DNA of 64,000 nucleotides from Sphingomonadaceae bacterium (GTDB taxonomy: Bacteria > Pseudomonadota > Alphaproteobacteria > Sphingomonadales > Sphingomonadaceae): contig JADZEQ010000010.1 of assembly GCA_020850455.1 (NCBI GenBank), forward strand, positions 62,001-126,000, in the 5' to 3' direction. Made by a program: the position numbers and the translations under genes. A model generated the notes under the pieces. It was not told the DNA's origin, made no database searches, and worked only from the letters and a program-made list of their open reading frames with translations. Position 1 is the stretch's first letter, and each line of letters opens with the position of its first letter. Below are positions 28,186 to 46,135 of the stretch, in pieces.

Positions 28186-28775
28186 CAGGGCACCATCGCT
28201 TGGACGCGCAGCCAACGCAACAGGGGGAGGAGCGGCATACCCAAAATGGTGAAATAATCCCCCTCTATCTTGTCGAACAAATTTACCCCGCGACCTTCGA
28301 TACGAAAACAGCCGACACAGCCAGATATCGCAGGCCATTCGGCATCGAGATAGGTCTGAATTTCCGCCCGATCGAGCGGGCGCACATATAATTTGGCGAT
28401 ACCGATATGCCGCCAGATGGGTGCCCCCCCCTCGCAGGCTACAATCGCACTGATCAGCGTCATGACCTGCCCCGAAAATGCGGCAAGGTGGGCGGCGGCA
28501 TCGTCCCTAGATGTCGGCTTATCATATATTTTGCCATCAACGACGACGATGGAATCAACCCCGAGGCACAGCGCAGCCGGGTCTGCCAAGCTTGCCTTCA
28601 GCGCCTTCATCTGGGCCAGCGCATCGGCAATATCGCGCGGGTGGGCACCCGCCATCGCGGTCTTTAGCGCTGCCTCGTCGGCATGGACGGGGCGGGCGAC
28701 AAAATCGACCCCCGCCCCCTCGAGCATGGCGCGGCGCGACGCGCTGGCGCTCGCCAATATCAATTGGCGCGTCAT
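28185..28775 (-). CDS. maf: Maf-like nucleoside triphosphate pyrophosphatase
   Basis: A 196-residue house-cleaning pyrophosphatase acting on non-canonical or modified dTTP/UTP-like nucleotides. It opens with ILASASASRRAMLEGAG, the Maf phosphate-binding loop, and has GVDSIVVVDGKIYDKP with the conserved Asp, and GCFRIEGRGVNLFDKIEGDY. It overlaps ppsR by 4 bases upstream and aroE downstream. Confidence 0.94.
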   Translation of the reverse strand: MTRQLILASASASRRAMLEGAGVDFVARPVHADEAALKTAMAGAHPRDIADALAQMKALKASLADPAALCLGVDSIVVVDGKIYDKPTSRDDAAAHLAAFSGQVMTLISAIVACEGGAPIWRHIGIAKLYVRPLDRAEIQTYLDAEWPAISGCVGCFRIEGRGVNLFDKIEGDYFTILGMPLLPLLRWLRVQAMVP

Positions 28776-29587
28776 GCCGCCCCTTCGGCCCGGTCGGCAT
28801 GGAGTTTTAAGATCGCCGCTGCGCTTTCCTCTATCGACCGGCGGGTCACATCAATCACCGGCCAGCCATGGTCGGCGAACATTCGCCGGGCAAAGGCAAT
28901 TTCGCGCGCCACCGCCTCTGCATCGGCATAGGGGCTGGCCCGGTCTTCGCCGAGCGCGCTCAGCCGGTTGCGCCGCACCGCGACCAACCGGTCGGCGCTG
29001 GTCGTCAGCCCGACGATCAACGGTTTTTGGAGGGTGAAGAGGCTATCGGGCGGCGGCGCTTCGGGGATGATCGGGATATTGGCGGTCTTATAACCGCGAT
29101 TGGCCAAATAAATGCTCGTCGGCGTCTTTGACGAACGCGATACACCGGCAAGGATGATGTCGGCATCCTCCCACCCATCTGGCTGCAGCCCGTCATCATG
29201 CGCCATCGTATAATGGATTGCCTCCACCCGCGCGAAATAGGCGGCATCCAGGCTATGTTGCCGCCCGGGGCGGGCCTTTGCCTCTTGGCCGAGCATTTGC
29301 GACAGGGCAAAGGTCACGCTGTCGAGCGCGGCGACGGCAGGCAGGTTCAAGCTTTGCGCCCGTTGTTCGAGCAAAGCGCGCAATTCGCGATTGACCAAGG
29401 TAAAGAGGATAAGGCCGGGGTTATCCGCCACCTCGACCAAAATACGTTCCAAATGGCCCGATGAGCGCACCATCGGCCAGAAATGACGGGTAACCGCGAC
29501 ATCGTCGAACTGGGCAAGCGCCGCCTTGGCCAGATTTTCCAGCGTTTCGCCGGTGGAATCCGATACAAGGTGGAGGTGGAGTTGCAT
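28772..29587 (-). CDS. ppsR: Pyruvate, phosphate/water dikinase regulatory kinase-phosphorylase (DUF299)
   Basis: A 271-residue bifunctional kinase/pyrophosphorylase that switches phosphoenolpyruvate synthase or PPDK on and off. It starts MQLHLHLVSDSTGETLENLA, has the P-loop GVSRSSKTPTSIYLA, and ends with the DVTRRSIEESAAAI motif. DUF299 (RP001 in Rickettsia) is the gene that flanks the replication origin opposite hemE in Caulobacter and Rickettsia, exactly as here. I chose ATG 29587 because it gives the family's N-terminus; the open frame to 29845 runs through the proposed origin and encodes nothing recognisable. Confidence 0.94.
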   Translation of the reverse strand: MQLHLHLVSDSTGETLENLAKAALAQFDDVAVTRHFWPMVRSSGHLERILVEVADNPGLILFTLVNRELRALLEQRAQSLNLPAVAALDSVTFALSQMLGQEAKARPGRQHSLDAAYFARVEAIHYTMAHDDGLQPDGWEDADIILAGVSRSSKTPTSIYLANRGYKTANIPIIPEAPPPDSLFTLQKPLIVGLTTSADRLVAVRRNRLSALGEDRASPYADAEAVAREIAFARRMFADHGWPVIDVTRRSIEESAAAILKLHADRAEGAA

Positions 29588-29608
29588 CGCGCTGTCATGT
29601 GGCGCGCC

Positions 29609-29617
29609 TGTGGATAA
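29609..29617 (-). promoter_or_regulatory. DnaA box, perfect
   Basis: TGTGGATAA, the reverse complement of the consensus TTATCCACA, 22 bases upstream of the ppsR start codon. Confidence 0.75.
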
Positions 29618-29720
29618 GGCAAGGGATGAAATGGAGGATAAGTTTGGGGATGGTGCGCGGGTGCAGACCCCTGCCGCACTTTGCCGATTCCATCCACAGC
29701 CACTTCCCCAGCCCGCCATA

Positions 29721-29741
29721 TTGTCCACAAGCTGTGGATAA
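29721..29741. promoter_or_regulatory. Inverted pair of DnaA boxes
   Basis: TTGTCCACA (one mismatch from TTATCCACA) and a perfect TGTGGATAA face each other across a 3-base spacer (AGC). A further weak match CCATCCACA is at 29690-29698. Such closely spaced opposed boxes favour cooperative DnaA loading. Confidence 0.75.
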
Positions 29742-29756
29742 TGGGGATGATTTGCG

Positions 29757-29781
29757 CGACTCGTGACCGCTTGGCGAGTCG
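29757..29781. repeat. Inverted repeat inside the proposed origin
   Basis: CGACTCG and CGAGTCG are separated by 11 bases (TGACCGCTTGG). It lies between the DnaA boxes and the A/T tract. Its role is unknown; it might bind a regulator of initiation. Confidence 0.5.
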
Positions 29782-29858
29782 TTTTGGCCTTGGTCGGGAT
29801 GAAACGGGCAGGGCGCGGCTGTCCCCGGCTTTCGCCCGCCATCAACTATCATCAACCC

Positions 29859-29877
29859 TATTATAAATATATATTTT
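29859..29877. other. 19-base pure A/T tract, likely DNA unwinding element
   Basis: An uninterrupted run of 19 A/T bases, containing TATAAATATATATTTT, in otherwise GC-rich DNA. It ends 17 bases before the hemE start codon. It could also contribute to a hemE promoter. Confidence 0.65.
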
Positions 29878-29894
29878 GGCTAAGAGGGGCGGCG

Positions 29895-30986
29895 ATGCAG
29901 TCTTCGCCTTCCACCCCCACCGCTCTCTCGCCCGCACCCATGCAAACCCGTCGGGATGCGCCGATATTGCGCGTGCTGGATGGCGAGATGCTCGATCCCC
30001 CACCCTTATGGTTGATGCGCCAGGCGGGGCGTTACCTGCCCGAATATCGCGCCTTGCGTGCGGATAAGGGGGGGTTCCTCGACCTTTGCTATGACCCGAT
30101 GGCGGCGGCGGAAATTACGCTGCAACCCATCCGTCGCTTTGGCTTCGATGCGGCAATTCTTTTTTCCGATATTTTGGTCATCCCCCATGCCTTGGGCCAA
30201 AATCTATGGTTTGAAGTGGGCGAGGGGCCACGGCTTGCCCCGCCGCTCGTTGATGGCGCGTTGACTGCGCTCAGCGCTGCTCCCCAGCGGCTCGGCCCGG
30301 TCATCGAAACGGTGCGCCGCGTGCGCGCCTTGTTGCCACCGGCTTGCGCCTTTTTGGGCTTTGCCGGTTCGCCTTGGACGGTCGCCACCTATATGGTGGC
30401 AGGCGCTGGCAGCCGCGATCAGGCGGCGGCGCGGCGGCTGGCCTATAGTGACCCCATTGCTTTTGGCGCGCTGATCGATGCGATTATTGCAGCGACCATC
30501 GATTATCTTGCCGACCAAATTGCCGCAGGGGTTGATGCGGTGCAATTATTCGACAGTTGGGCGGGTAGCCTGTCACCCGCACAGTTTGAACGCTGGGTGA
30601 TTGCGCCCAATGCCGCGATCGTCGATGGGCTGCGCGCCCGTTGTCCCGGCGCGCGCATCATCGGCTTTCCCAAGGGGGCAGGCGGTAAATTGGCTGCCTA
30701 TGCCCGCGAAACGGGCGTTGATGCGCTGGGGATTGATGAAAGCGTCGATCCTGTTTGGGCCAATGCGGTGTTGCCGGAACATATGCCGGTGCAAGGGAAT
30801 TTGGACCCGCTGGCGCTGATCGCCGGGGGTGATGCGCTGACAAGCGCGATCGACAATATCCGCGCCGCCTTTGCGGGACGGCCGCATATTTTCAATCTGG
30901 GGCACGGCATTTTGCCCGACACCCCAATTGCCCATGTCGAAGAATTAATCGCGCGGCTACGCACGCCGCATGCGGCGGTGCGATGA
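29895..30986 (+). CDS. hemE: Uroporphyrinogen decarboxylase
   Basis: A 363-residue heme-pathway enzyme converting uroporphyrinogen III to coproporphyrinogen III. It has the substrate-binding MRQAGRYLPEYRALR, the FSDILVIPHALG segment with catalytic Asp, GFAGSPWTVATYM, and FNLGHGILPDTP near the C-terminus. ATG 29895 has AAGAGG upstream; an in-frame GTG at 29763 would start inside the proposed origin. The first 25 residues (SSPSTPTALSPAP) are a low-complexity extension, so ATG 29940 is a possible shorter start. Shares ATGA with hemJ. Confidence 0.95.
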   Translation: MQSSPSTPTALSPAPMQTRRDAPILRVLDGEMLDPPPLWLMRQAGRYLPEYRALRADKGGFLDLCYDPMAAAEITLQPIRRFGFDAAILFSDILVIPHALGQNLWFEVGEGPRLAPPLVDGALTALSAAPQRLGPVIETVRRVRALLPPACAFLGFAGSPWTVATYMVAGAGSRDQAAARRLAYSDPIAFGALIDAIIAATIDYLADQIAAGVDAVQLFDSWAGSLSPAQFERWVIAPNAAIVDGLRARCPGARIIGFPKGAGGKLAAYARETGVDALGIDESVDPVWANAVLPEHMPVQGNLDPLALIAGGDALTSAIDNIRAAFAGRPHIFNLGHGILPDTPIAHVEELIARLRTPHAAVR

Positions 30987-35328: not shown

Positions 35329-35331
35329 CGG
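35305..35331. repeat. 11-base tandem repeat covering the ogt start codon
   Basis: ATCGGGGCAAC is present twice in tandem plus a 5-base partial copy. Each copy boundary supplies a CAT (ATG on the minus strand), the two lying 11 bases apart and so in different frames. Loss or gain of one unit would change the ogt reading frame relative to the upstream ribosome site. Confidence 0.6.
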
Positions 35332-35449
35332 CGCGTTTTCCTGCCCATTTGCTCTGGCGCGCGCTTCGCCCTATGCATGGCGACCAAGCTAGAGAAAGCC
35401 TTGCATTTGCGCCATTTTTGCGCCGCAACCGGGCAGGAGGGATGACGTC

Positions 35450-35683
35450 ATGAAGATAAATATCGACATTGACTGCACACCGGCGGAGGCGCGCGCCTTC
35501 CTCGGCCTGCCCGATGTTACCCCGCTCCACGCGCTCTATATCGCGCGGATGGAGGAAATGGTGAAGGAAGGGGTGACCCCCGATATGGTGGCCGCGATGG
35601 TCAAAAGCTGGTCAACGCTGGGCGATGCGGGGATGGGCATGTTCCAGAATTTTCTCAGCCAAATGGGCAGTGCAAAGCGCTAA
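35450..35683 (+). CDS. DUF6489-like small protein
   Basis: A 77-residue soluble protein, MKINIDIDCTPAEARAFLGL then PDVTPLHALYIARMEEMVKE, of a small family I associate with DUF6489 in sphingomonads and relatives. Function unknown. A GGAGG sequence lies 9 bases before the ATG. It starts six bases ahead of mnmE in the same operon, which hints at a link with tRNA modification, but this is only positional. Confidence 0.78.
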   Translation: MKINIDIDCTPAEARAFLGLPDVTPLHALYIARMEEMVKEGVTPDMVAAMVKSWSTLGDAGMGMFQNFLSQMGSAKR

Positions 35684-35689
35684 GCCATT

Positions 35690-37024: not shown

Positions 37025-37040
37025 TGTTCCACGTGAAACA
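37025..37040. promoter_or_regulatory. parS: parS centromere site, one mismatch
   Basis: TGTTCCACGTGAAACA differs from the consensus TGTTTCACGTGAAACA at one position. It lies in the gap between mnmE and the mnmG start, about 7 kb from the proposed origin. ParB, encoded 3.5 kb downstream, would load here. Confidence 0.85.
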
Positions 37041-38985: not shown

Positions 38986-39650
38986 GCGCGATGAACAGCG
39001 AATCGGCGGCGCGCGCATGGATTGCCGGTCTGCCCGATGTTTCACGTGAAACATTTGCATCGCTCGACACCTATATCGGCCTGCTCCGCGCCGAATCGGC
39101 ACGACAAAATCTCGTCGCCGCCTCCACACTCGCCGATGATATATTATGGTGTCGCCATATTCTCGATTCGGCACAATGTTTGGCGCATGCGCCGTCTGCG
39201 GGCCGCTGGGTCGATCTGGGTAGCGGGCCGGGCTTGCCGGGCCTGATCGTTGCGATTCTGGCGCCCCGATTTCATGTGACCTTGGTTGAATCGCGGCGCC
39301 TCAGGGTCGAGTTTTTGCAACATTGCGTTACAGAAATTGGCCTGAATCAAAATGTTAGCGTGATTCAGGCGCGGGTCGAAACGCTGCCCGCCCGCGCTTA
39401 TGACGTTATTTCCGCGCGCGCCTTTGCCCCGCTCGCGCGGCTCATCCCGCTCGCGCGCCACCTTGCTGGCCCCAATAGTCGCTGGATTTTGCCGATGGGG
39501 CAGGGGGCAAAAACGGCCCTTTCCACGCTGCCCGCGCCATGGCAAAGATGTTTTGCGCTGCACACCAGCCTGACCGATGCTGCATCGGGCATTTTGGTGG
39601 GGGAAGGCACGTTCAATGAAGTTAAATCATTGAACAAACGTAATAAATAG
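38982..39650 (+). CDS. rsmG: 16S rRNA (guanine-527-N7) methyltransferase RsmG (GidB)
   Basis: A 222-residue SAM-dependent methyltransferase of the 530 loop of 16S rRNA. The SAM site is [17 protein letters not shown], with [15 protein letters not shown] and [14 protein letters not shown]. Residues 19-24 (DVSRET) are encoded by a perfect parS site, so the same bases serve as codons and as a centromere sequence. It overlaps mnmG by 4 bases and precedes parA by 75 bases. Confidence 0.95.
39038..39053. promoter_or_regulatory. parS: parS centromere site, perfect, inside rsmG
   Basis: TGTTTCACGTGAAACA, an exact match to the 16-base parS palindrome, within the 5' part of the rsmG coding sequence and about 9 kb from the proposed origin. 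Confidence 0.93.
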
Positions 39651-39725: not shown

Positions 39726-40508
39726 ATGATCAAAATCGCCATTGCCAATCAAAAAGGCGGCGTCGGCAAGACAACGAGCGCCATCAACCTTGCCACCGCA
39801 TTGGCGGCGAGCGGTTGGCGCACCTTGCTGATCGATATGGACCCGCAGGGTAATGCCTCGACCGGTTTGGGCGTTGCCAGCGCCCAGCGCCACACTTCGT
39901 CGTACGATCTTTTGCTCGGCGAAGCGGATGTGATCGCCGCTGCGCAGTCGACACGTATTCCCCGACTGGACCTTGTCCCCGCCACCGTCGATTTATCGGG
40001 GGCAGAGGTTGAAATGGTGGCGCTGCCCGACCGCACCCACCGATTGGCGCAGATTTTGGCCGCCGCGCCCGCCGGGCAATGGGATATCTGCCTGATTGAC
40101 TGCCCACCCTCGCTCGGCCTCCTGACGCTCAACGCGCTGTGCAGCGCCGATTCGCTACTCGTCCCGCTGCAATGCGAATTTTTCGCGCTCGAGGGACTTA
40201 GCCAATTGCTGCAGACGGTCGAGCGGGTGCGCGCGCGTTTCAACCCCGGCCTGTCGATATTGGGCGTCGTCCTCACCATGTTCGACCGGCGCAATCGGCT
40301 GACCGATGCGGTGTCTGCCGATGTGCGCGAATGTTTGGGGCCGATTGTTTTTGACAGCGTCATTCCGCGCAATGTCCGCCTGTCCGAAGCGCCCAGCCAC
40401 GGGCTGCCGGCGCTGGTTTATGACCATAAATGTTCGGGTTCGATTGCCTATATGGCGCTGGCGCGGGAGGTGATTTCGCGCCTGCCCGCCCTGCAAGTGG
40501 CGGCTTGA
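39726..40508 (+). CDS. parA: Chromosome partitioning ATPase ParA
   Basis: A 260-residue deviant Walker ATPase that forms the gradient moving ParB-bound origins apart. It has the signature IAIANQKGGVGKTTSAINLA (KGGVGKT at residues 10-16), LIDMDPQGNASTGLG, and LIDCPPSLGLLTLNAL. ParB follows after one base. With parS sites upstream and mipZ elsewhere in the window, this is the chromosomal partition system. Confidence 0.96.
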   Translation: MIKIAIANQKGGVGKTTSAINLATALAASGWRTLLIDMDPQGNASTGLGVASAQRHTSSYDLLLGEADVIAAAQSTRIPRLDLVPATVDLSGAEVEMVALPDRTHRLAQILAAAPAGQWDICLIDCPPSLGLLTLNALCSADSLLVPLQCEFFALEGLSQLLQTVERVRARFNPGLSILGVVLTMFDRRNRLTDAVSADVRECLGPIVFDSVIPRNVRLSEAPSHGLPALVYDHKCSGSIAYMALAREVISRLPALQVAA

Positions 40509-40509
40509 T

Positions 40510-41499
40510 ATGGCAGACGACAAGGAAAAAGGCGAAGCGAAGGGGCCGGAAAGTGGCCAGATAGCGCCGCTTGGCGGCCTCGTGCGGGCCAAACGGCCGG
40601 GGGGGCTCGGGCGGGGGCTTTCGGCGCTGCTCGGCGATATGGAGGGGGAGGCGCCGCTCGCCGCAACGATCAGCGGCGGCGCCCCGCGTGAGGGGTTGAC
40701 CAATTTGCCCATCGCGCAAATCCACCCCCACCCCGATCAGCCCCGCCGCCACTTTGACGAAGGCGCGCTCACCGAACTTGCCGCCTCCATCCGTACGCGC
40801 GGGCTGGTGCAGCCGATATTGGTGCGCCCCGCGCCCGACGGGCAAGGGTGGCAATTGGTGGCGGGCGAACGGCGCTGGCGCGCGGCGCAGCGCGCCGGCT
40901 TGCATGAAGTGCCGGCGTTGGTGCGTAGCCTCGATGACCGCGAAACCTTTACCATCGCGCTCGTCGAAAATATCCAGCGGAAGGATCTGACCGCGATCGA
41001 AGAAGCGGAGGCCTATGCCCGCCTACGCGACAATCTGGGCCATAATGCCGAGGAAATCGGCCAAATGACCGGCAAATCGCGCAGCCATGTCACCAATATA
41101 TTGCGCCTGCTCGACTTACCCGATGGGGTGCGGGCGATGGTCGCCGATGGCAGCTTGGGCATGGGACATGCCCGTGCGCTGATCGGCCATGCAGATGCGT
41201 TGGGCATCGCGCGTAAAGCCGCTAAGCAGGGCTGGTCGGTGCGCAAGGTGGAGGCTTTGGTCCGGCAGGATGGCACGTCGCGCCGGGCGGCATCGGGCCG
41301 GACAGCTGCCCGCACCAACGGGGGCGATAGCGGCGGGGATGCCGATATTGCGGCGCTCGAATCGCACCTCGCCGCGCTGCTCGGTGTTGCGGTGCGAATC
41401 AACTATAACGCCGACGGCAGCGGGCAATTGACGCTGGATTACGCCAGTCTCGACACGCTCGACATGCTGTGTCAGCGGCTAAGTGGCGGACAATTTTAG
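40510..41499 (+). CDS. parB: Chromosome partitioning protein ParB
   Basis: A 329-residue CTP-dependent clamp that loads at parS. An N-terminal basic region with GGLGRGLSALLGD (the ParA-contacting segment) is followed by the CTPase domain (HPDQPRRHFDEGALTELAAS, VAGERRWRAAQRAG, VENIQRKDLTAIEEA) and the HTH region GQMTGKSRSHVTNILRLLDL. The C-terminal dimerisation domain (AALLGVAVRINYNADGSGQL) completes it. Unlike in Caulobacter, holA does not follow; the locus borders the chaperone-usher genes. Confidence 0.96.
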   Translation: MADDKEKGEAKGPESGQIAPLGGLVRAKRPGGLGRGLSALLGDMEGEAPLAATISGGAPREGLTNLPIAQIHPHPDQPRRHFDEGALTELAASIRTRGLVQPILVRPAPDGQGWQLVAGERRWRAAQRAGLHEVPALVRSLDDRETFTIALVENIQRKDLTAIEEAEAYARLRDNLGHNAEEIGQMTGKSRSHVTNILRLLDLPDGVRAMVADGSLGMGHARALIGHADALGIARKAAKQGWSVRKVEALVRQDGTSRRAASGRTAARTNGGDSGGDADIAALESHLAALLGVAVRINYNADGSGQLTLDYASLDTLDMLCQRLSGGQF

Positions 41500-41555: not shown

Positions 41556-41644
41556 CGATTCCGATTTGGGAAGGCCCCATGCGCCATTTGGCATGTGTGA
41601 TCGGCGGGGGGCCGTCGAACACGACGACCAACCGATTGCGATTT
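41556..41644. repeat. Pair of direct repeats in the pilin gene leader
   Basis: CGATTCCGATTT (41556-41567) and CGATTGCGATTT (41633-41644) differ at one base and flank 65 bases of leader before the DUF4402 gene. The second copy overlaps the region just ahead of its ribosome site. They may bind a regulator; I see no clear sigma-70 promoter. Confidence 0.35.
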
Positions 41645-41661
41645 ACAAGGGACCATATTTT

Positions 41662-42168
41662 ATGACCAAGATGCTTTCGCGTGCCCTCGCTGGCTCGCTC
41701 CTCATCGCCGCTGGCATGACCGCTGGCACCGCTTATGCCGCACCGGTGACTGCCGATGCGACCGCCAGCGCCACGATTTTGGCACCGGTGACCGTTTCCA
41801 ATACCGCTGACCTCGACTTCGGCACGATCGTGTCGGGTGCGTCGGCTGCGACCGTCAACGTGTCGACCGCTGGTACGCGTACCTGCGGCACCGGCCTGAC
41901 CTGCACCGGCACCACGACCGCTGCTGCTTTCTCGATCACGGGGAGCGCGAGCAAGGTTGTGACCGTTTCGGTTCCGGCCAGCGTTTCGCTGTCGAACGGC
42001 ACCGATTCGATGACCGCAACCCTGTCGAGCACCGCTGGTTCGGGCACGCTGACGCTCAGCGCGACCGGCACCGGTTCGCTCAACGTGGGTGGCTTGCTGT
42101 CGGTGGCTGCTGGCCAGGCGGATGGTGCCTATACCGGCACCTTCACGGTCAGCGTTGATTATCAATAA
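41662..42168 (+). CDS. DUF4402 pilin-like secreted protein
   Basis: A 168-residue exported protein, signal peptide cut after GTAYA. The mature protein is Thr/Ser/Ala/Gly-rich and beta-strand-like: ATASATILAPVTVSNTADLD, FGTIVSGAS, two cysteines in TRTCGTGLTCTG, and the end GTFTVSVDYQ. DUF4402 proteins are Ig-like fimbrial-type subunits often found with chaperone-usher genes, and here a chaperone and usher follow. About 13 of roughly 30 alanine codons are GCT, whereas neighbours mostly use GCG/GCC, suggesting strong expression. AAGGGA precedes the ATG. Confidence 0.82.
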   Translation: MTKMLSRALAGSLLIAAGMTAGTAYAAPVTADATASATILAPVTVSNTADLDFGTIVSGASAATVNVSTAGTRTCGTGLTCTGTTTAAAFSITGSASKVVTVSVPASVSLSNGTDSMTATLSSTAGSGTLTLSATGTGSLNVGGLLSVAAGQADGAYTGTFTVSVDYQ

Positions 42169-42242
42169 TCGACACTGATTTGGGGCACATGCGGGGCGGG
42201 TCACCCCCCGACACGCACCCCATGTTCCAGACAATCCACTTG

Positions 42243-42279
42243 GGGGTCGCCGATGATATCGGCGGCCCCTTTGGCTTTT
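42243..42279 (+). terminator. Strong hairpin terminator between pilin and chaperone genes
   Basis: GGGGTCGCCGAT pairs with ATCGGCGGCCCC over 12 positions (one G-U) with a 3-base loop, followed by TTTGGCTTTT. It lies 75 bases after the pilin stop. Partial read-through would give high pilin and low chaperone/usher levels. A second small hairpin (GGGGCG-CATCAC-CGCCCC, 42387-42404) precedes the chaperone ribosome site. Confidence 0.8.
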
Positions 42280-42428
42280 GGCGCAAATTTGTCGAAAATT
42301 GGCGGCTTTGCTGCCCCCGGCGCGCTTATGGTTAGCAAAGTTGCAACCATGTTTCCCCTAGCCATTTCGGGTCAATCCACCCGGAAGGGGCGCATCACCG
42401 CCCCCTCGTGACCAGCGGGAGAATATTC

Positions 42429-43259
42429 ATGATCCAGAAATTGCTGCGACGCGCCGGCGTCGCACTGGCGGCAAGCGGCCTGTTCCTGACTCTGGGAACC
42501 GCCCATGCAGGGGGTGGCGATTTGCTCGTCGCACCGACGCGTGTGGTGCTCGACGGACCGCGTGGGGCCGAAATCGTCCTCAACAATATTGGTGAGGCGA
42601 CCGCAACCTATCGCATCTCGCTCGAAATCAAGCGGATGACGGCTGAAGGTGCGCTCGAAGAAATTGACCCGAACGCGGTCAATGATGCCGAACGGCAGGC
42701 GCTCGCCATGCTGCTCTATAGCCCGCGCCGGGTGACCTTGCCGCCAAACCAGCCGCAAACCATTCGGCTGAGCGTGCGTCCGCCCGCCGGACTGCCCGAC
42801 GGCGAATATCGTGCGCATATGCTGTTTCGCGCGGTGCCGGAATCGCGCTCGATCAGCGCGCCTGCAACCGCGACGAGCGGAGTTTCCATATCGCTCACCC
42901 CGATTTACGGTGTCTCCATCCCCATCATTGTGCGCCAGGGGCGGCTGGAAGCGACCGCCGCAATCGCCAATGCGCGGTTGGAAGCACCGGGCACCGAACG
43001 GCTGTTGCGCTTTGACCTTAGCAAAGTGGGCAATCGTTCGGTCTATGGCGAAGTTATCGTTACACGGCCGGGCGTTGCCGAACCCTTGGTTGCTGCGCGC
43101 GGGGTCGCCATCTACCCCGAAATCAACCAGCGCGTCGTCACCCTGCCGCTCAGCCAGGAACAATATGACGCGCTGCATGGGCCGGTGACCATCCGCTTTG
43201 TCGAAGATCGGGAGGTGGGTAACGCCACGCTCGCGGAATTGAGCACGGTGCTGCGCTGA
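42429..43259 (+). CDS. Periplasmic fimbrial-type chaperone
   Basis: A 276-residue exported protein with signal peptide ending GTAHAGG. The first Ig-like domain has LLVAPTRVVLDGPRGAEIVL and the typical chaperone motif YSPRRVTLPPNQPQTIRLSV, which contains the basic residue cluster that anchors subunit C-termini; YRAHMLFRAVP follows. The second domain runs from about residue 140. It resembles PapD-like chaperones in layout but is longer. It would hold DUF4402 subunits for the adjacent usher. GGGAGA precedes ATG 42429. Confidence 0.82.
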   Translation: MIQKLLRRAGVALAASGLFLTLGTAHAGGGDLLVAPTRVVLDGPRGAEIVLNNIGEATATYRISLEIKRMTAEGALEEIDPNAVNDAERQALAMLLYSPRRVTLPPNQPQTIRLSVRPPAGLPDGEYRAHMLFRAVPESRSISAPATATSGVSISLTPIYGVSIPIIVRQGRLEATAAIANARLEAPGTERLLRFDLSKVGNRSVYGEVIVTRPGVAEPLVAARGVAIYPEINQRVVTLPLSQEQYDALHGPVTIRFVEDREVGNATLAELSTVLR

Positions 43260-43309
43260 TCGGTGCTGCGGGCAGGCATGTGATGCCCGCTCGGCCCGGT
43301 TAGGATGTG

Positions 43310-46135
43310 ATGCGCAAGCTCACCCGCCTTTGTTCGTTGGTCATGGCCCTGTGGGCTGCGGCGCTGCCGGGGATTATCCCCGGCGGCGTTGACGCATCTG
43401 TGGCGCATGCACAAAGCAGCGGACAATGGACACCAACTGCCGAAGAACAATGGCTTTTTGAGCTGCGCACCAGCCGGTATCGCATCGGCGATGGTGTGCG
43501 CGGCTATGCCAATGGTGACAAAAGCTGCGTCATTTTTACCGATGTCGTCCAGCAGCTCGACCTGCCGATCCGCATCAATGAACAGTTGCGCCGCGCAACT
43601 GGCTGGGCATTTGACGAACGGCGCACGCTGACCATCGATCGGGAGGCTGGTCGGGTAACGCTCGCCAGTTCCAGCCGCGCGCTGCGCCCTGTCGAAATCC
43701 TCGATACGCCAGAGGGGTGGTGCGTCGATGCGGCATCCTTGGGCGAATGGCTGGGCGTTACGATGCGCGCGGACACCGCCAATTCGGTGCTCAGCCTCAG
43801 TTCTGAAAGCCCGCTCCCCTTTGAACGTGCGGCGCAACGGCGCGAGCGCGCAGCCAATGCGCGCCCCGATGCGCCATTTTCGCTGGCCGATTTGCCGCAA
43901 GCCCGCCGACCCTATGCAATGTGGCAGACCCCGGCGGTGGATGTCGTCGCTTCGGTCAATTATATTCGCGATGCCGGCGCTGGAACCAGCCGCTTGCAGC
44001 GCCGTTATGAACTTTTTGCCGCGGGTGAGATGTTCGGCGCATCCTTTGACGCGCGGCTGGCCAGCGATGATCGCGGGATTCCGCAAAGCTTGCGCATGCG
44101 GCTCTATCGTTCTGACCCGTCGGGGCAGCTGTTCGGCCCGTTACAGGCAACCCATGTGGCGGTTGGCGACATCAACGGTATGACGTCGCCCATCGGCAGC
44201 CAGCCGGTGCCCGGCCGCGGCGCGATGGTCACCAACCGTCCGCTCGACCTGCCCGATGGTTTCGACCGCATCACCTTTCGCGGCGATTTGCCGAGCGGCT
44301 GGGATGCCGAACTATACCGCAATGGTCAGCTGATCGGCTTTGCCGAACAAGGGGCCGATGGGCGTTATCAATTCACCGATGTCCGCCTGCAATTTGGGGC
44401 GAACCAGTTTGAGATTGTCCTCTACGGCCCGCAGGGTCAGGTGCGCCGCGAAGTGCGCAATATCCCCGTTGGGATAGACGCCATCCCGGCGGGAAAAACT
44501 TATTATTGGGCCGGGGTCTTGCAGGAAGATCATGACCTCATCACCCTGTTCGACCGCAATATGCCGCGCCCGTTCCGACGCGGGTGGCGATATATGTTCG
44601 GCATTGAACATGGCATCGACCGCCGGACGACGGTCGGCGGATGGCTGACCAATTTGATGATTGAAAACCGCCGCTATTCGATGGTGGAGGCTTCGGTGCG
44701 GCGTGCAATTGGCCCCACCTTGGTCGAATTGACCGGCAGCGCGCAAAATGGCGGCGGCACTGCGGCACGCATCGCCATGTTGGCGACGCTGGGCAATAGT
44801 GGTTCGATCCAGTTTGAAAGCGTACGTGCCTTTGGCGGCTATCGTTCGGACCGTATCGCCCAGGGGGTGACCGGCCTGTCGGTCATCAGCCTTGACCATG
44901 TTTTGCGTTTTGGCAGCACCGCTTTGCCCATCCATGTAGAGGCGAATTGGCGCGAACGTGCCGATGGCAGCAACCGGGCGCAGGTTGGAACCCGCATTTC
45001 CGGCAATTGGCGTAATATTTCGTTAACCGGTCAAATCGACTGGACCAAAAATTATGCCGCAGGCTTTGGTGCGGACCCTGCCAGCGTCAACGCCGCCTTG
45101 CTTGTGAACGCGCGTTTTGGCCGTTTGCGCCTGCGGGGGGAGGCGCGCATGGCCGTCGCCGGGCCATCGGATAATGACGAAGTGGCGCTGACCGCCGAAT
45201 GGAACCAGTCCGAACGCAGCGATTGGCGGGTGGAACTGGGTTATCAGGCAGCCGTCGGGCGCGCGCGCGTCGGTGTTGGCTATACGCGGCGTTTTGACCG
45301 GCTGGCGTTAGGCGGTGTCATCGAAGCCGCCAGCGATGGTTCGGTTGCCGCATCGCTCAACCTCAGCTTTGCATTCGGCCCCGATCCGCGCGGCGGCGGC
45401 ATCCGCTTTGCGCGGGAGCGATTGGCCGCACAGGGGCAGGCGCTGGCCGAAGTTTTCTACGATAATAATGGTGACGGGCATCGGCAGGCCAATGAACCGC
45501 TGGCAGAGGGGGTTACGATTACCGCGGGCAATGCGGTTGCCGAAGCGCCGACCGGTGCGGATGGTCAGGCGATTGTCGATGCGCTGGTGCCGTTCCGCCC
45601 GATTTTGATCGGGATCGACGAATCCAGCCTGCCCGACCCGCTGATTCGACCCGCACTGCCCGGCGTTGTCGTCACGCCCCGACCCGGCGTCGCGACGCGG
45701 GTCGAATTGCCACTGACGCAAGCGGGCGAAGTGGATGGCAGTTTGGTGCGTGAAGGGGGTTCGGGGATCGAGGGGGTCGATCTGGAACTGGTTGACGCGC
45801 AAAATATTGTACGCGCGCATGCCCGCACCGACTATGATGGATATTTTCTTTTAGAATCCGTGCCTTATGGGCGTTATACGCTGCGCATCGCCGCGCTGTC
45901 GGCGCAGGTTTTGGCGGTCGATGCGCGGCTGACATCGCTGAGTGTTGATGCGGATAATCCACGCGTCAATTTGGGCGGGTTGCGCCTGCATGCACGCGCT
46001 AGCTTGGCGCGTGCACCGCCGCAGGGGGATGCAGGGGCAGCACCACAGGATGGCCATAGTGCAACGACGACAGCGGCTGCGGCGACAGCTACGCCGGTCG
46101 ATGCTGCTGTGACGAATATGCGCGATAGCCATTAG
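43310..46135 (+). CDS. Atypical outer-membrane usher with C-terminal Ig-like repeat modules
   Basis: A 941-residue exported protein. After the signal peptide (SVAHAQ) comes an N-terminal domain with two cysteines (KSCVIFTDVVQQL, EGWCVDAAS), then barrel-like strands. Residues about 320-390 have the usher segment PSGWDAELYRNGQLIGFAEQ and GANQFEIVLYGPQGQVRREV. After the barrel, an SdrD_B-like module (AEVFYDNNGDGHRQANEPLA) and a carboxypeptidase-regulatory-like module (GSGIEGVDLELVDAQNIVRA...YDGYFLLESVPYGRYTLRI) follow, ending in an Ala/Thr-rich tail. Classical FimD/PapC ushers lack these modules. It would export DUF4402 subunits; this is inferred from context and weak similarity. GTG 43307 is an alternative start. 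Confidence 0.7.
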   Translation: MRKLTRLCSLVMALWAAALPGIIPGGVDASVAHAQSSGQWTPTAEEQWLFELRTSRYRIGDGVRGYANGDKSCVIFTDVVQQLDLPIRINEQLRRATGWAFDERRTLTIDREAGRVTLASSSRALRPVEILDTPEGWCVDAASLGEWLGVTMRADTANSVLSLSSESPLPFERAAQRRERAANARPDAPFSLADLPQARRPYAMWQTPAVDVVASVNYIRDAGAGTSRLQRRYELFAAGEMFGASFDARLASDDRGIPQSLRMRLYRSDPSGQLFGPLQATHVAVGDINGMTSPIGSQPVPGRGAMVTNRPLDLPDGFDRITFRGDLPSGWDAELYRNGQLIGFAEQGADGRYQFTDVRLQFGANQFEIVLYGPQGQVRREVRNIPVGIDAIPAGKTYYWAGVLQEDHDLITLFDRNMPRPFRRGWRYMFGIEHGIDRRTTVGGWLTNLMIENRRYSMVEASVRRAIGPTLVELTGSAQNGGGTAARIAMLATLGNSGSIQFESVRAFGGYRSDRIAQGVTGLSVISLDHVLRFGSTALPIHVEANWRERADGSNRAQVGTRISGNWRNISLTGQIDWTKNYAAGFGADPASVNAALLVNARFGRLRLRGEARMAVAGPSDNDEVALTAEWNQSERSDWRVELGYQAAVGRARVGVGYTRRFDRLALGGVIEAASDGSVAASLNLSFAFGPDPRGGGIRFARERLAAQGQALAEVFYDNNGDGHRQANEPLAEGVTITAGNAVAEAPTGADGQAIVDALVPFRPILIGIDESSLPDPLIRPALPGVVVTPRPGVATRVELPLTQAGEVDGSLVREGGSGIEGVDLELVDAQNIVRAHARTDYDGYFLLESVPYGRYTLRIAALSAQVLAVDARLTSLSVDADNPRVNLGGLRLHARASLARAPPQGDAGAAPQDGHSATTTAAAATATPVDAAVTNMRDSH

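Follow-up and report, generated by a model that had tools for sequence, protein, structure and literature searches.

A predicted replication origin in the ppsR-hemE gap of a Sphingomonadaceae chromosome

Introduction

Does the short gap between ppsR and hemE in this Sphingomonadaceae bacterium hold the replication origin of its chromosome, or is the gap a promoter region, with replication starting elsewhere? The initial annotation of the locus inferred an oriC and took as its precedent the origins of Caulobacter and Rickettsia, which lie between hemE and the DUF299 gene, as is indeed stated in PMC1914354. Within the family, an oriC beside hemE with DnaA boxes and a duplex unwinding element (DUE) was described in 2016 for Sphingopyxis, and according to the same work DoriC predicts this placement for most Sphingomonadaceae, and one database entry should be moved to it (PMC4741004). 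The gap is a further instance of this known kind.

Results

The gap and its surroundings

The window, that is, the whole 64-kb stretch of DNA that was analysed, contains the gap between two divergent genes that both read outward from it:

28772..29587, minus strand: ppsR, left boundary gene, kinase/pyrophosphorylase (PF03618, DUF299/COG1806; E 1.2e-93)
29588..29894, no strand: predicted oriC, the 307-bp ppsR-hemE gap, called on boxes, A/T run, conservation, skew and dif distance
29895..30986, plus strand: hemE, right boundary gene, uroporphyrinogen decarboxylase (PF01208; E 1.6e-108)

The limits of the gap are exactly the ppsR start and the hemE ATG used here. Because similarity of hemE to its relatives begins mostly at residues 19 to 24, this start is perhaps too early; with a further ATG at 29940 (in the region 29895-30008), the true start may lie downstream, for example at that ATG, and the gap may be slightly longer.

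The gap had been described as the sole gene-free stretch of more than 300 bases, and no counter-example was met in the window. With a crude ORF caller, seven further gaps above 300 remained, and a plausible ORF shrinks each of them, including 35329-35689, below that length; Maf is the only one of these ORFs confirmed by Pfam, and spurious ORFs may mask further gaps. A search of the whole window with Rfam at gathering thresholds returned nothing except one tRNA, and a promoter and terminator scan found neither a sigma-70 promoter nor a terminator in the gap. A plasmid origin was considered and rejected, with no match among 72,556 plasmid records at E 1e-5. Elsewhere in the window, shortly after parB (41566-46135), lie genes judged by eye to code for a secreted coat-U-like protein, a pilus-type chaperone and an usher-like protein. 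The genome itself measures 2.35 Mb at 99.98% completeness; most of its 35 congeners are far larger (up to 5.1 Mb) and only one, G015 (2.3 Mb), is similar in size.

DnaA boxes and an easily melted stretch

The following elements were located in the gap:

29609..29617, minus strand: DnaA box 1, TTATCCACA, exact
29686..29690, no strand: GANTC (GATTC), CcrM-type methylation site
29690..29698, plus strand: weak DnaA-like box 2, CCATCCACA, two mismatches
29721..29729, plus strand: DnaA box 3, TTGTCCACA, one mismatch, facing box 4
29733..29741, minus strand: DnaA box 4, TTATCCACA, exact
29758..29762, no strand: GANTC (GACTC), first of a conserved pair
29776..29780, no strand: GANTC (GAGTC), second of the pair
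29844..29883, no strand: A/T-rich stretch, presumed duplex unwinding element, holding a 19-nt pure A/T run at 29859-29877

The two perfect boxes and one near-perfect box reported initially are boxes 1, 4 and 3, and the inverted repeat reported with them is the facing pair of boxes 3 and 4, whose 10-nt arms (29720-29729 and 29733-29742) are 90% complementary across a 3-nt spacer. Three more two-mismatch sites lie in the gap besides box 2. Boxes with at most one mismatch number 12 in the window, against a mean of 5.78 in shuffled sequence, and this number was reached in one of 100 shuffles; three of the 12, both exact ones included, cluster inside the gap in a stretch of 133 bp. The cluster is beyond chance, and it is conserved in relatives. 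With at most one mismatch, the facing pair occurs at a single place in the 12-contig genome, which is the gap, and with two mismatches at one other place.

The 19-base A/T run is the longest in the window, as had been noted, the next having 13 bases. By nearest-neighbour energy, the 20- and 30-bp stretches at this run are the least stable of the window, and at 40 bp the stretch ranks second. An easily melted A/T-rich stretch thus lies beside the boxes. Other known origin motifs were sought in the gap. CtrA sites (TTAA-N7-TTAA) were not found, nor were they in the looser TTWW form, and their mean was 0.00 across 35 genus gaps and 21 gaps of other families. The IHF site WATCAN5WTR had no match on either strand. 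DnaA-trios have the looser form 3'-[GA]A[TA]-5', and no run of three was present anywhere in the gap when at least three such trios were sought within 16 bp of a box. The trio consensus 3'-GAT-5' and the 16-bp spacer limit are those of PMC8287927. The CtrA brake known from Caulobacter is probably absent here.

Conservation of the locus in relatives

A search for hemE in 60 genomes (the bacterium's own, 35 of the same genus and 24 of other families of the order) gave a match in all 60, and 59 loci were examined, G018 being left out with hemE split over contigs. In relatives the gap was measured between the first residues of ppsR and of hemE that aligned, and includes some codons of the hemE end; the gap counts omit L050 (ppsR start unaligned), L047 (at a contig end) and L065 (without ppsR). 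A divergent ppsR stands beside hemE in 57 of the 59 loci, the exceptions being L047, cut by a contig end, and L065, which has none, so that the position between divergent hemE and the DUF299 gene is common to nearly all of them. Among the named alphaproteobacterial hemE loci listed, a divergent ppsR was found within 1.5 kb in 57 of 80. The 23 others include seven of Bradyrhizobium, one of Sphingomonas (L113), several of rhodobacteria and some on short contigs; L126-L130 and L132-L135 are among them. The 14 best named loci (L107-L120) have hemE 60-77% identical to that of the window and are labelled Sphingomonas, Novosphingobium, Erythrobacter, Sphingomonadaceae, Sphingomonadales and once just Alphaproteobacteria.

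Boxes with at most one mismatch average 3.09 per gap in the genome's own gap and those of 34 congeners, against 0.03 in coding controls of equal length. At least two boxes are present in all 35 genus gaps, in 17 of 21 gaps of the order's other families (4 have fewer) and in 9 of 17 named loci from L107-L124 (8 have fewer), with none among the controls in each case, and in 31 of 40 further named alphaproteobacterial loci, with one among the controls. The alignment of the 35 genus gaps shows conserved islands at box 1, GATTC, the forward boxes, the facing box, GACTC, GAGTC, CTGTTGGCA and the A/T-rich end; TGTGGA[TC]AA (box 1), GATTC and GACTC-N-GAGTC are each found in 35/35, and the facing box pair in its strict form in 29/35. 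Among the alignment rows shown, box 2 is aligned to a box with at most one mismatch in seven congeners outside the window's subclade. The start-to-start distance from box 2 to box 3 is 31 nt in the window and 31-32 nt in the window, L041 and L042 taken together; it is 20 nt in three other congeners shown.

The GACTC/GAGTC pair is kept in all 35 genus gaps, and the DNA between its two sites drifts. The window, L041 and L042 share a spacer of 13 nt; it measures 23 nt in 30 others and 24 nt in one, and L031 has 15 nt plus a further GAGTC in register. The shifts of this spacer and of the distance between boxes 2 and 3 run in opposite directions, and each is close to one helical turn. GANTC density in the genus gaps is 12.3 per kb and no gap has fewer than three sites, compared with 1.63 per kb in 28 origin-free control stretches of 20 kb from two congeners; within these stretches, runs of 80 nt or more that contain no ORF numbered 30; their density was 2.16 per kb, and one run of the 30 had three sites. 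The window's gap, with three sites, has 9.8 per kb, compared with about 1.3 in other intergenic DNA as delimited by the crude caller. GcrA (PF07750) and a protein with a RAMA domain (PF18755), which we take to be the tail domain of CcrM and hence its mark, were found in the own genome and in all eight relatives tested. In 14 control genomes the RAMA match occurred only in Caulobacter, and GcrA in Caulobacter and, oddly, in Sulfolobus acidocaldarius. In the literature searched, which stops short of the supplement of PMC4741004, no fixed GANTC pair at sphingomonad origins was met.

GC skew

The own genome is a 12-contig draft, and skew was drawn on contig C10 only, of which all but 2 kb was used (147,671 bp, about 148 kb; gap at 91588-91894). 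Cumulative skew is lowest at 90989, and the contig is best divided at 91000, a single change point some 0.7 kb away from the gap, with a skew of -0.010 to its left and +0.026 to its right. This change point was equalled in none of 2000 permutations of 1-kb blocks, a comparison that slightly favours the observed value, which was sought in 100-base steps while the permuted ones were sought in 1-kb steps. A skew minimum beside dnaA had been named initially as the sign of an origin elsewhere; the C10 minimum lies instead near the gap, and dnaA is on another contig. The skew of C10 alone would not settle the origin, since the curve dips again near 46 kb to nearly the same depth (-532, compared with -562).

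In G039, from another family, the cumulative minimum of a 40-kb stretch falls 0.2 kb from the gap, and the sampled skew is negative in 5/5 pieces on one side and positive in 5/5 on the other. No sign change at the gap was seen in G007 or G017, the only two congeners sampled: in G007 the skew is +0.015 on the left and +0.048 on the right with a local minimum 13 kb from the gap, and in G017 it is -0.002 and -0.007 with a local minimum at 38 kb, the sampled skew being negative out to +316 kb on one side and mixed on the other. Sampled skew in both genomes (L067-L086 in G017, L087-L096 in G007) is weak or changes sign several times. Inversions are perhaps the cause of this irregularity, and skew has been reported as insufficient in several alphaproteobacteria (PMC1914354). 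Skew was accordingly dropped as the deciding test in complete congeners, and dif and parS were used. K-mer polarity learned on G039 was also tried and transferred poorly (GGGNAGGG occurs 16 vs 2 times in G039 and 17 vs 14 times in the own contig).

The unclear skew of G007 and G017, together with the altered box and GANTC spacing in the window's genome, L041 and L042, could be taken to mean that a second origin is active besides the gap, or that the gap is an ancestral origin which has been replaced in part. We find this scarcely credible, given that the skew of the own contig still changes at the gap and that no other place in the genome has the facing box pair with at most one mismatch.

Position relative to dif, parABS and dnaA

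Partitioning elements lie 7-12 kb from the gap, the parS sites at 7-9.5 kb:

37025..37040, no strand: parS-type site, TGTTCCACGTGAAACA
39038..39053, no strand: parS-type site, TGTTTCACGTGAAACA
39726..40508, plus strand: parA-type ATPase
40510..41499, plus strand: parB (PF02195, PF17762, PF23552)

Geometry was measured in 13 relatives with a one-piece chromosome, eight of them congeners, all treated as circles; G013 and G040 have a second contig, and C1 was taken as the chromosome. Where several dif matches were found (G020, G039, G048, G053 and G058), the choice followed the A/T palindromic core of the single-match genomes. The probable dif site CCGATAATATATATTATGTTAA is identical in the eight congeners searched (G001, G005, G007, G013, G016, G017, G020 and G024), and the best-looking candidate in the own genome is GATAATATATATTATGTAAT at C5:649939-649958. 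In all 13 relatives the gap lies 0.405-0.494 of the circle from dif, that is, opposite the terminus. Twelve of the 13, all but G040, have exact parS sites, and every one of these sites is 6.6-12.7 kb from the gap.

These distances bear on the possibility that replication starts at or near dnaA, as is common among bacteria and as the numbering of many deposited records would suggest. The distance from dnaA to the gap ranges from 0.02 to 0.36 of the chromosome in the 13 relatives, and from dnaA to dif from 0.124 to 0.491. It is dnaA that lies nearer the antipode of dif in G013 (0.491 vs 0.405 for the gap) and G016 (0.487 vs 0.434), and in G007 dnaA lies within the span from -490 to -190 kb over which the sampled skew changes sign. 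In the other 11 relatives (6 of 8 in the genus) the gap is the nearer of the two. With dnaA only 0.124 of the circle from dif in G017 and 0.165 in G040, the arms would be grossly unequal, and in the 12 relatives with an exact site parS lies 71-1060 kb from dnaA, compared with less than 13 kb from the gap. In Sphingomonadales, a position of dnaA close to ori has also been reported not to be conserved (PMC8116508). An origin at dnaA is, in our judgement, extremely improbable.

A promoter-like element beside the GANTC pair

Downstream of the GANTC pair, CTGTTGGCA forms part of a promoter-like element in 32 of the 35 genus gaps and is missing in the window. The consensus of the 32 congener gaps after the pair reads TTGGCA-17 nt-TAAAGC (spacing counted by eye) and looks like a promoter directed through the A/T stretch towards hemE. 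This element would suit a reading in which the gap is a mere divergent promoter region of ppsR and hemE, at which DnaA serves as a transcription factor, and the origin lies elsewhere; DnaA boxes are also known in Caulobacter promoters (PMC4468827), and GANTC sites in the promoters of several Caulobacter cell-cycle genes (PMC2217572). Such a reading accounts neither for the A/T stretch and the change point in skew nor for the linkage to par, the distance from dif and the position shared with the experimentally mapped Caulobacter origin (Cori), and the promoter scan gave no sigma-70-type site in the gap. We therefore regard it as very unlikely.

Discussion

Our results indicate that the ppsR-hemE gap is almost certainly the DnaA-dependent origin of the chromosome. 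The earlier oriC assignment is supported by the gene context, the boxes, the A/T stretch and the skew change point of the own contig, and is strengthened by the proximity of parABS, the replichore balance relative to dif in relatives and the conservation of the boxes. The boxes, the A/T stretch, their conservation, the own-contig change point and the par and dif geometry in relatives were computed here. Counted against the assignment were the unclear skew in G007 and G017, the position of dnaA nearer the dif antipode in two of eight congeners (G013 and G016), the second dip of C10, the lack of IHF sites, CtrA sites and DnaA-trios in the gap, the lack of ppsR beside hemE in L065 (another family) and L113 (Sphingomonas), and the occurrence of gaps with fewer than two boxes.

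By analogy with E. coli and Caulobacter, whose sequence of initiation steps (DnaA, then melting, then the helicase) is adopted here, DnaA would load first on the strong boxes, namely the one at 29609 and the facing pair at 29721 and 29733, and its oligomer would then grow in the direction of hemE. DnaA would next melt the A/T-rich stretch at 29844-29883, where the helicase would be loaded and from where two forks would set out, after which the new origins would be separated by ParB at the parS sites, 7-9.5 kb from the gap.

Compared with known systems, the gap shares with the oriC of Sphingopyxis granuli TFA and other Sphingomonadaceae the position at hemE, several boxes, a putative DUE and the gene order (Ori-Finder/DoriC, PMC4741004); the Sphingopyxis oriC is likewise a computed prediction. 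Like Cori of Caulobacter crescentus, the gap lies between hemE and the COG1806/DUF299 gene and has DnaA sites, an A/T-rich region and linkage to parABS (PMC1914354, PMC4468827), and the own genome also resembles Caulobacter in having GcrA and a RAMA-domain protein. Cori differs in its five CtrA sites, its IHF site and its weak G/W DnaA boxes (PMC1914354, PMC4468827), whereas the gap has no CtrA or IHF consensus and two of its boxes match the E. coli consensus exactly; a further difference from Caulobacter is that dnaA is not on the contig of the gap. The Rickettsia origins have the same boundary genes, hemE and COG1806, but are far richer in A+T (82.6% in R. prowazekii, compared with a mean of 43% in the 35 genus gaps) and have reported CtrA and IHF sites (PMC1914354), none of which were found in the gap.

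Our guess is that CcrM methylation of the conserved GANTC sites is a candidate timing signal. A role of methylation at the origin has already been assumed for Caulobacter (PMC2217572), hemE transcription is said to matter for replication in that species (PMC8959179), and loss of ctrA was reported to have no negative effect on growth of Sphingomonas melonis (PMC8116508). One rather unlikely scenario is that, in this clade, CcrM methylation takes the place of CtrA in gating the firing of the origin, the GANTC pair sensing full versus half methylation. Lying between the boxes and the unwinding stretch, the pair might in that case act on DnaA directly or through GcrA-dependent transcription across the unwinding stretch, a suggestion that we hold just as tentatively.

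Seven of 14 relatives are numbered from dnaA, and the assignment of the gap fixes the likely start of replication where such numbering would mislead. It also provides a small alphaproteobacterial origin without CtrA sites, and with it a setting in which the conserved CcrM-type sites can be tested.
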